A stretch of 64,000 nucleotides of DNA from Rhodospirillaceae bacterium (GTDB lineage Bacteria > Pseudomonadota > Alphaproteobacteria > Bin65). The stretch is from positions 1 through 64,000 of the forward strand of contig JAPPLJ010000067.1 of assembly GCA_028819475.1 (NCBI GenBank). The letters are read 5' to 3'. Position numbers and translations under genes: made by a program. Shown piece after piece: positions 14,705 through 52,845 of the stretch. The notes under the pieces were generated by a model, which saw only the letters and a list, made by a program, of their open reading frames with translations, ran no database searches and was not told the origin of the DNA. Position 1 is the first letter of the stretch, and every line of letters begins with the position of its first letter.

Positions 14705-16816
14705 ATGTTCGAAACCAGCATCGACGCCGACGGCATCGCGGTCATCAAGTGGAACATCCCGGACCGCCCGGTCAACGTGATGAACGAGACCACGATGGCC
14801 GGCTTCCGCGACGAGGTGGAAAAGGCGATCGCCGACGATGCGGTGAAGGGCGTCGTCATCGCCTCGGCCAAGGACGATTTCATCGCCGGCGCCGATATCG
14901 ACGGTTTTCTCGAGGACCTGAGCGTCGAGGCCCTGCTGCCCCAGTTCCTCATGTTCGACAAGGTCGGCCGCGCGATGGAGACCTGCGGCAAGCCCTTCGT
15001 CGCGGCGATCAACGGCCATGCGCTGGGCGGCGGCTTCGAGACCGCGCTGTGCTGCCATTACCGGATCGCGGCGGACAACCCGAAGGCGCGCATCGGCCTG
15101 CCGGAGATCGGCCTCGGCGTATTGCCGGGCGGCGGCGGCACCCAGCGCATCCCGCGCATGCTCGGCCTGCAGGCGGGCCTCAAGATGCTGCTCGACGGCC
15201 GGAAGCACACGGTCGCCCAGGCAGCCAAATTGGGGCTGGTCGACGAGGTTGTGCCGCCGGAAGACCTGCTCGATGCGGCAAAAAAATGGGCGCTCGACAA
15301 CCCGGACGCGACCCAGCCGTGGGACCGCAAGGGCTTCCGCATTCCCGGCGGCGACGTGCAAAGCCCGACGGGGATGCAGCTGTTCCCCGCAGCCAACGCC
15401 ATGGGGCGGGAGCGCAGCTTCGGCAACTATCCGGCGGTCCAGGCGATCCTGTCCTGCGTCTACGAGGGCTGCCAGCGCCACATCGATGTCGGCCTCCGGG
15501 TCGAGAGCAAGTATCTGGTCAACATGATCCGCCATCCGGTGACCAAGGCGATGGTGCGCACCGGCTTTTTCGAAATGGCCAAGGCGCGCAAGCTCAAGGG
15601 CCGGCCCGAAGGCGTCCCGAAAGCGAGGATCGGCAAGCTCGGCATCCTCGGCGCCGGCATGATGGGCGCCGGCATCGCGTCGGTGAGCGCCGGCCGCGGC
15701 ATCGACTGCGTGCTGATGGACGTCGACCGGGAAGCCGCCGAAGCGGGCAAGGCGCGCGCCGCGGCACCTCTGGAACGCCGCGTGAAACAGGGCAGGATGC
15801 AAGAGGATCGGATGGCCGCCCTGCTCGACCGCATCGCGCCAACCGACGACTACGCCGCCCTGGAAGGCAGCGACCTTGTCATCGAGGCGGTGTTCGAGGA
15901 CCGGGCGATCAAGGCCGACGTGACGAAGGCCGCCGAAGCCCGCCTCGCCGACGACGCCGTTTTCGCCTCCAACACCTCGACCCTGCCGATCACCGGCCTC
16001 GCGAAGACCAGCGCCCGGCCCGCGAATTTCATCGGCATCCACTTCTTCTCGCCGGTCGAGAAGATGCCGCTGGTCTAAATCATCCGCGGCGCGGAGACCG
16101 GCGACGCCGCGGTCGCGCTCGCGCTCGATTACGTCCAGGCCATCGGCAAGACGCCGATCGTGGTCAACGACGGCCGCGGCTTCTTCACCAGCCGGGTCTT
16201 CGCCACCTACGTCATGGAGGGCGTCGCGCTGCTCAAGGAGGGCGTCGCGCCGGCCCTGATCGAGAATGCCGGCAAGATCGCGGGCTTCCCTGTCGGTCCG
16301 CTCGAAGTCGTCGACAACACCAGCCTCGGCCTGTCGCTCGCCATCCGGCGCCAGTGGAAGAAGGACCTGGGCGAAGCGTATGCCGGCCATCCGGCGGACG
16401 ACGTGTTCGAGCTGTTCGTCGAGACGCTGGACCGGCCGGGCCGCAAGGCGGGCCGGGGCTTTTACGACTGGCCGGCGGACGGGCGCGCCGGCGAAACGAA
16501 ATGCCTATGGCCGGAACTCGGCCGCCATTTCCCGCGCGCCGCCGAACAGCCGGACGTCGAAGACGTCAAGCAGCGCCTCCTCCATATCCAGTCGGTCGAG
16601 GCGCTGCGCTGCCGGGCCGAAAATGTGGTGACCGGCCGGGCCGACGCCGATGTCGGCTCGATCCTCGGCTGGGGCTTCCCGATGTATACCGGCGGCGTGC
16701 TCTCCTGGGTCGGCCAGGTCGGCGCCGCGGCGTTCGAGGACCAGTGCCACGCCCTCGCCGACCGGCACGGCCCCCGCTTCGCCCCGCCCGAAGACGTAGC
16801 GGCGCTCGCGGCGTGA
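14705..16816 (+). pseudogene. fadJ: Bifunctional enoyl-CoA hydratase/3-hydroxyacyl-CoA dehydrogenase with internal stop
   Basis: The frame encodes a FadB/FadJ-type multifunctional beta-oxidation protein of 703 codons. Residues 1-~190 are a crotonase domain (NGHALGGGFETAL, GLPEIGLGVLPGGGGTQRIP). Residues ~310-490 are the NAD-binding domain (GILGAGMMGAGIA, SNTSTLPIT, IGIHFFSPVEKMPLV), followed by the dehydrogenase C-terminal domains. Codon 458 is TAA (16076-16078) exactly where homologues read Glu in PLVEIIRG; GAA to TAA needs one base change. The frame resumes immediately with no shift. Translation would yield a 457-residue hydratase plus NAD domain; a GTG at 16160 could restart the rest. A base error in the assembly is the main alternative to a true nonsense mutation. 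Confidence 0.85.
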
Positions 16817-25533: not shown

Positions 25534-25565
25534 AAAAAACCCGCTTCAGCGTTTCTGCCAGCGGG
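25534..25565 (-). terminator. Intrinsic terminator of the SAM-II expression platform
   Basis: Read on the minus strand, CCCGCT pairs with AGCGGG across a 14-base loop region and is followed by TTTTTT. It lies about 12 bases after the riboswitch and 135 bases before metY, the position of a regulated attenuator. Confidence 0.7.
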
Positions 25566-25576
25566 GCCAGATACAC

Positions 25577-25634
25577 GGCGCCGCTTTAGCTGCATTTGTT
25601 ATGCGCCCGCAAGCTGGTGCTCAAATCGGCGCAG
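25577..25634 (-). promoter_or_regulatory. SAM-II riboswitch
   Basis: On the minus strand the RNA reads TGCGCCGATTTGAGC, then CAGCTTGCG, then GGCGCATAACAAATGCAGCT and AAAGCGGCG. The TGCGCC/GGCGCA arms form P1, and the GATTTGA loop, AACAAATG and AGCTAAA stretches are the conserved pseudoknot and ligand-binding parts of SAM-II. It lies in the leader of metY, the classic alphaproteobacterial context. SAM binding would lower metY expression. Confidence 0.85.
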
Positions 25635-25642
25635 CGTCGCAG

Positions 25643-51331: not shown

Positions 51332-52471
51332 ATGCCCGCCGAAACCGGAACGGTCGAGACCTTCGACTACCGTCACAGCCCGCTGCCGGTGCGCGACGGT
51401 CTGGCGGCCTCGCAGCGGCGCGCCTGGGCCCGGCTGGGCGAGCCGGGCGAATGGTGGCCGGCCGCGATGCGCATCGCGATCGCCGAGGAGACCCGCGCGG
51501 CGCCCGACTGCGCCTTCTGCATCGAGCGCAAGGCGGCGCTCTCGCCCTATGCCGTCAGCGGGACGCACACCGCGGCGACCGGGTTACCGGAGGTGCTGGT
51601 CGAAGTCATCCACCGCATCCGCACCGATCCAGAGCGCCTGACCCGTCGGTTCTACGAGGATGCGCTGGCGGGCGGCCTGAGCGACGCGGAATATGTCGAG
51701 ACCGTCGCCGTCATCGCCACGGTCGTCGCCGTCGACAGCTTCTGCGACGCCATGGGCCTGCCGCGCCACGCCCTGCCGGCGCCGGTGCCCGGCGAACCGC
51801 GCCGGCGGCGGCCCGCCGGGGCGAAAGACGGGCTGGCCTGGATGCCGACGGTCGCGCCCGAGGACCTGACCGGGGCGGAGGCCGGCATGTATGACGGACT
51901 GGCCGCCGTGAACATCCACCGGGCGCTCTCCCTCGTGCCGGCGGAGGTCGTCGGATTCTTCGATCTGGACGCCGAGCATTACCTGCCCGACGCGCAACTG
52001 CGCGATTTCGGTACCGAATACCGCGCGCTGACCCACGCCCAGATCGAGTTCCTCGCCGCCCGGGTTTCGGCGATCAACCAGTGCGTCTACTGAACCACCA
52101 GCCACGCGGTGCTGCTCCGGGGGAGCGGCGAGCATACCGGCGATGACTACGATCTGGCGGCCATCGTGCCCGACCGGGAGAAAGACGGCGGCAGCGGCAG
52201 CGGTGTTGCCGCGGCGGCGGCGCTGACCGCCTACGCCGACGCCTTCTTCGACGGCGGGCAGGACTTTGCCGCGGCGCGCGACCGGCTGCACGCGGAGATC
52301 GGCGGCGCAGCGCTGGTCGACGCCGCCAGCGTGCTCGCCATCTTCAACGCGGTCGTGCGGATCGCCGACGCGACCGGCATTCCGCTGGAAGACCAGAAAG
52401 CCGCGATGTCGGCGGATTTCAGGGACGCGCTGGGCATCGCCGACTACCCGTCAACGGCCGGCAAGTTCTGA
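51332..52471 (+). CDS. AhpD/CMD-like two-domain protein with in-frame UGA (candidate selenoprotein)
   Basis: The frame runs 379 codons from ATG 51332 to TGA 52469, with one internal TGA at 52091-52093 (codon 254). Two carboxymuconolactone-decarboxylase/AhpD repeats are visible. The first has the redox motif CAFCIERKAAL; the second reads AINQCVY, then TGA, then TTSHAVLLRGSGEHTG. In AhpD-like proteins that position is the second Cys of CxxC followed by the conserved His, so UGA would give C-V-Y-Sec. A hairpin at 52111-52129 has the place expected of a bacterial SECIS. Downstream codons continue the family fold without a shift (ALTAYADAFFDGGQDF, AIFNAVVRIADATG). If not decoded as Sec, the product stops at 253 residues. 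A Cys-to-stop mutation is the alternative. Confidence 0.75.
52111..52129 (+). promoter_or_regulatory. SECIS-like hairpin after the in-frame UGA
   Basis: GCTGCTCC (52111-52118) pairs with GGAGCGGC (52122-52129), one pair being U-G, leaving a small G-rich loop. The loop begins about 24 bases after the UGA, within the range known for bacterial SECIS elements. GC-rich genomes form hairpins easily, so this is suggestive only. Confidence 0.45.
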
Positions 52472-52566: not shown

Positions 52567-52845
52567 CTATTGGTCCCTTGATGCCGCTGCCATGGCCGCA
52601 TCGTCGAACGCCGGCAGACTCTCGAAGGAGCCGAATCCCTGCTTCACATACCACACGGAAAAATTGAGCATGGCTTCCGGCGACGGCGCGCTCGCGATGT
52701 CGACGAAATCGTACCGGCCCTGGGTGTAGTGGATCGAATCGAACTCGATCCCGAGCTCGCTGGCCTTGGCGCGCGCCAGCCTGATCCGCTCCTCGTGCCT
52801 GGTCAGCCATTCGTCGCTCTGCTTGCCGAGCAGCACATATTTCAT
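52567..52845 (-). CDS. GYD-domain protein
   Basis: This 92-residue protein contains IHYTQGRYDFVDIASAPSPE, the GYD-type core, with MKYVLLGKQS at the start and NFSVWYVKQGFGSFESLPAF near the end. It is a small dimeric ferredoxin-like fold; its function is unknown. It is convergent with the candidate selenoprotein gene. Confidence 0.8.
   Translation of the reverse strand: MKYVLLGKQSDEWLTRHEERIRLARAKASELGIEFDSIHYTQGRYDFVDIASAPSPEAMLNFSVWYVKQGFGSFESLPAFDDAAMAAASRDQ

Follow-up and report, generated by a model that had tools for sequence, protein, structure and literature searches.

The window, by which we mean the whole 64,000-nucleotide stretch of Rhodospirillaceae bacterium DNA that was analysed, carries on its plus strand a gene whose reading frame starts with an ATG at 51332, is interrupted once, by an in-frame TGA (52091-52093), and then stays open for 125 codons up to a terminal TGA at 52469-52471. 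The internal codon stands in the context SAINQCVY-stop-TTSHAVLL, and re-reading of the sequence confirmed what an earlier sequence-only reading had described, namely one in-frame TGA in a CVY-stop-TTSH motif followed by 125 open codons. On comparative sequence evidence, the apparent stop of the 51332-52471 gene is almost certainly a selenocysteine (Sec) codon in a peroxidase-like enzyme. The predicted features of the locus are as follows:

51332-52471, plus strand: selenoprotein gene of the AhpD_rel_CFYUT family (NF041238), 379 aa with Sec at 254, assigned from sequence and profile match
51509-51520, plus strand: N-terminal CxxC (C60, C63) of a first, degenerate AhpD repeat with no His at +4, found in 68 of 75 members
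52046-52048, plus strand: E239 codon, position of AhpD Glu118, invariant (75/75), with the spacing E-12-C-3-U-4-H as in AhpD (PMC3141380)
52082-52084, plus strand: C251 codon, partner thiol, position of AhpD Cys130, invariant
52091-52093, plus strand: in-frame TGA read as selenocysteine (U254), a TGA in 77/77 distinct members and Cys in none
52103-52105, plus strand: H258 codon, position of AhpD His137, invariant
52111-52129, plus strand: bacterial SECIS (bSECIS) hairpin, stem 52111-52117 with 52123-52129 and loop 52118-52122, family loop (C/A)G(U/G)NN, from folding, constraint, covariation and the bSECIS model

The open frame beyond the TGA and the hairpin downstream of it had been two of the original arguments for recoding, and both are weak when taken alone. 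At least 125 further open codons followed frames of at least 250 codons in 30% of 122 cases in this GC-rich window, and the fold energy of the hairpin was the same as that of shuffled sequence (z = -0.12). Open-frame length and hairpin energy were each rejected as stand-alone evidence, and because both are unremarkable, comparative evidence was needed; together with such data, the same two arguments stand well above chance.

With the TGA translated as Sec or Cys, the product matched the NCBIfam family NF041238 (AhpD_rel_CFYUT, "alkylhydroperoxidase-related (seleno)protein") at 457.2 bits (E 4e-137; curated cut-off 175 bits), nearly over its full length (residues 20-373 on model positions 1-356 of 357), and the same model matched all 59 aligned family members. 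A 2026 review gives NF041238 as "AhpD-related protein (hypothetical protein 1, Sargasso Sea metagenome)" with the motif CxxU (PMC13188914), and "hypothetical protein 1" was introduced with a conserved CXXU motif in a 2005 Sargasso Sea paper (PMC1088965). The profile match and these two publications indicate that the family was already known. The window gene shares with "hypothetical protein 1" the full-length match, the CxxU motif, the in-frame UGA and the bSECIS (PMC1088965; PMC13188914), and differs from it in nothing essential; it is a further member of a known selenoprotein family and adds no new kind. The earlier call of a selenoprotein holds, on the strength of the machinery, the universal TGA and the SECIS described below, but the idea of a new kind of selenoprotein does not, the family having been known since 2005. 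Cys homologues of "hypothetical protein 1" are listed in the table of the 2005 paper (PMC1088965), and no Cys form was present among the 77 members collected here.

The codon aligned with 254 was TGA in all of the 77 distinct members gathered, and because these genes come from dozens of assemblies made independently, an assembly error is excluded. Homologues were aligned for Cys at this codon, a check proposed earlier: distant AhpD-like proteins of Deinococcus (6k40 and 2oyo) have Cys at the Sec position (NCVYC/NCLYC), with the sequence profile reaching E 1e-15 against 6k40, and within the family Cys was found in 0/77. Selection on both sides of the codon was estimated from three same-genus comparisons, pairs with few downstream changes being uninformative. 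The dN/dS values before/after the TGA were 0.17/0.18 (window gene vs L057), 0.19/0.17 (window gene vs L047) and 0.20/0.18 (L057 vs L047). Purifying selection, as estimated from these ratios, is equal upstream and downstream of the TGA, and the conservation of the frame in homologues, on which the earlier interpretation had been made to depend, was thus observed.

The predicted hairpin has the stem GCUGCUC/GAGCGGC and a loop at nucleotides 25-29 after the TGA, with a folding energy of -19.8 kcal/mol for 52091-52145. Measured by published criteria (PMC13188914), the window element has a stem of 7-8 bp, the loop CGGGG and 24 nt from UGA to loop, and the family hairpin fits the bSECIS model of the same source (Fig 2A). 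Judged against the family's own codon usage, synonymous codon choice was frozen chiefly in codons +7 to +12 counted from the TGA, and usage before the TGA and from +13 onward was near normal; Leu+8 is CTC in 75/75 members, Ala+10 is GCG in 33/33, and Ser+11 is AGC or AGT in 76/76. The codons of Thr+2 and Ser+3 were restricted too. Thr+2 is ACC in 63 of 65 cases, though the hairpin begins only at about codon +6, and this bias possibly reflects a preferred sequence context around the Sec UGA.

The stem (nucleotides 18-24 with 30-36) was paired in 87.6% of cells, a share that fell to 37-51% on shifting it by 1-3 columns, and the covariation score of 0.159, against 0.100 in shuffled data, was reached by none of 500 shuffles, a comparison that related sequences can inflate. 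SECIS-like hairpins with a stem of at least 5 pairs occurred in 57 of 76 members, compared with 6.2 expected (maximum 15) when synonymous codons were randomised. The second loop position is G, followed by U or G, in 76/76 members; the core MFE criterion was passed by 55/76, and about a quarter of the members have a core stem of fewer than 5 contiguous pairs or a weak core fold. The covariance model R1, applied to the window's own genome, produced strong matches at the four paralogues only (E up to 1.5e-6), the next matches in that genome having E 0.07 and above and including no TGA-linked candidate. The hairpin reported earlier is present, and its putative SECIS function is backed by synonymous constraint, covariation and a canonical bacterial SECIS loop.

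The genome from which the window derives (4.48 Mb, 72 contigs, 96% complete) was searched for the Sec machinery, as the earlier reading had recommended, and selA (538 bits), selB (398 bits), tRNA-Sec (72 bits) and selD (266 bits) were found in one cluster within 6 kb on contig C50. There are four family members in this genome with exactly one TGA each, on contigs C67 (the window gene), C50, C26 and C33, and the C50 paralogue adjoins selD on the opposite strand. The SelD of this cluster (L110 9477-11693, C50; 738 aa) has a pyridine nucleotide-disulfide oxidoreductase domain fused in front of it, an arrangement like that of Ndh-SelD fusions reported in ocean data (PMC2398784).

Across a class sample of 385 genomes, the family was present in 27 and selA in 56, and all 27 carriers were selA-positive (Fisher p = 3e-26, although related genomes are not independent); each of the 50 family matches in this sample had exactly one TGA. 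When coordinates were compared, 8 of the 27 carriers had a paralogue no more than about 6 kb away from selA. In the phylum-wide sample the family occurred in the window's own genome only (1/398), which indicates that it is rare outside some alphaproteobacterial lineages, and no relatives were found in viral contigs. Copy number reaches five per genome in Alphaproteobacteria, and the tree contains three paralogue groups that are represented in 7/7 genomes of the genus, two of which also have a fourth group; Sec is kept throughout. Two relatives (L056 and L067) lie on contigs labelled Immundisolibacterales and Gemmatimonadetes; they are 75% identical and nested in the window's alphaproteobacterial clade, reflecting either lateral transfer or mis-binned contigs.

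Explanations other than selenocysteine have to be weighed against these data. The gene could be an ordinary CxxC gene broken by a nonsense mutation or sequencing error, since a FadJ/FadB-like gene elsewhere in the window (14705-16789, plus strand; 76% identity to a same-genus homologue) also has a single in-frame stop, at 16076-16078, and the sequence-only reading had taken this break as a warning of similar damage. That stop is a TAA with Glu in homologue L059; as a recoded codon it was rejected in favour of a plain nonsense change or assembly error, and it is an event separate from the TGA of the selenoprotein gene. Against the universal TGA of the family, the equal dN/dS downstream and the SECIS constraint, damage of this kind has next to no probability. 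UGA readthrough with insertion of other residues is known elsewhere, which lends a general precedent to programmed insertion of Trp or another residue, and termination at the TGA would give a 253-residue protein that retains the first repeat and might be functional. Both options are very improbable, as position 254 is Cys in AhpD relatives, the invariant catalytic His258 comes after the TGA, the carriers are exclusively selA-positive and the loop fits the bSECIS consensus.

The selenocysteine reading is therefore preferred: taken jointly, the data make it highly probable that the gene encodes an NF041238 selenoprotein with UGA decoded via a SECIS, tandem AhpD repeats and a proposed redox role, and they support the earlier interpretation as right in substance. 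In this scheme, SelB and tRNA-Sec would decode UGA 52091-52093, assisted by a SECIS hairpin that lies 18-36 nt further on, inside the coding sequence. The putative Sec codon, SECIS and active-site pattern are established by comparison among sequences. A real UGA recoding event was confirmed from sequence alone where ordinary gene callers would truncate the product. The 77 genes, the SECIS covariation and the synonymous constraint provide strong comparative evidence for a little-studied selenoprotein family.

In the protein, E239, C251, codon 254 and H258 were invariant in 75 sequences and Y253 was conserved in 99%, and the family keeps the spacing of the Glu118, Cys130, Cys133 and His137 relay of M. 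tuberculosis AhpD (PMC3141380). Alignment of the first half with the second by hhalign (E 0.0006) put the CxxC of C60/C63 on C251/U254, which supports a two-repeat reading. The sequence data thus support a prediction in which two AhpD-type helical repeats stand in tandem, with the complete relay Glu239, Cys251, Tyr253, Sec254 and His258 in the second. A clade of seven (L093, L109 (G000 C33, G001 C17), L086, L087, L088 and L121 among the named members) is without the N-terminal CxxC and keeps the CxxU, and this loss suggests that the first-repeat cysteines are dispensable. The AlphaFold model (pLDDT 93.4) is almost all helical and has the predicted AhpD helical fold, and Foldseek matched it to the single-repeat structures 6k40 and 2oyo with probability 1.00, although the E-values (2e-3 to 7e-3) got no better than 2e-3; TM scores, taken by target length, were 0.75-0.76. 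The whole-chain match to the two-repeat Sestrin2 was weak (TM 0.44-0.46, E 0.12-0.8, rmsd 12-16).

The second repeat of the window protein is homologous to AhpD-like, peroxidase-related proteins of the TIGR01926 type (6k40 and 2oyo of Deinococcus; GOS/Sargasso AhpD-like selenoproteins) through the pattern E-(12)-C-x-Y-C/U-(4)-H, and some of these also have Sec; they are single repeats of about 190 aa, the solved ones with Cys, whereas the window protein has two repeats and Sec and scored 40.6 bits against TIGR01926, below its cut-off of 81.8. Compared with M. tuberculosis AhpD (1knc, 1gu9), the spacing of the relay residues is common to both, but AhpD is shorter, has Cys instead of Sec and has His132 where the window protein has Tyr, a replacement in which the latter resembles PA0269. 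Against the classical AhpD model (TIGR00777) the score was 15 bits, far below the cut-off of 191.95. Human Sestrin2 (5dj4; PMC4674687) likewise combines two pseudo-symmetric AhpD-like halves in one chain, one of them catalytic, but there the N-terminal half is the catalytic one and has a single Cys and no Sec, and the structural match is weak (TM 0.44, rmsd 16).

The position of the TGA had been described as that of the resolving Cys, a label that finds no support: Sec aligns with Cys133 of M. tuberculosis AhpD, which is reported to sit at the bottom of the active-site cleft, in contact with AhpC (PMC6626918), and this position argues against a resolving residue. We infer that the window protein may have peroxidase or thiol-reductase activity. 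Sec254, at the exposed Cys133 position, would attack a hydroperoxide or disulfide, would form a selenenylsulfide with Cys251 and could then be re-reduced by a thiol or lipoyl donor, AhpD being re-reduced by lipoamide proteins (PMC8945050); the N-terminal CxxC may serve as an electron relay or be vestigial. A job other than peroxide reduction, either as a thiol-disulfide adaptor for another enzyme or in selenium handling, is a somewhat less probable but serious alternative. AhpD itself is an adaptor that reduces AhpC (PMC3141380; PMC6626918), and the linkage of one paralogue to selA in some carrier genomes would fit selenium handling. The window copy, on the other hand, has no conserved operon partner, and DR1765, an AhpD-like protein of D. 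radiodurans, the organism of the nearest solved relative, protects against H2O2 through its CxxC (PMC8945050).

Neighbouring genes vary among family members and offered no functional clue, and neighbour conservation was dropped as a criterion because no consistent pattern surrounds the window copy. Ten members have crotonase-type genes nearby, but genomes of this kind usually contain many of them.

A wider proposal is that of a strictly Sec-dependent, multi-copy tandem-AhpD family in Alphaproteobacteria whose paralogues have split in function, with one paralogue linked to the sel cluster, and which is a main reason for keeping selenocysteine, its one active and one degenerate repeat making it a bacterial counterpart of Sestrin. 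In this full form the proposal is unlikely. The family is seemingly Sec-only and amplified in these Alphaproteobacteria, and it is in this respect a fair candidate in which to ask why the Sec machinery is kept.

Elsewhere in the window, a small gene for a GYD-domain protein (52567-52845, minus strand) is convergent with the selenoprotein gene, and a SAM_alpha riboswitch aptamer (RF00521) at 25565-25642 on the minus strand scores 38 bits, above the gathering score.
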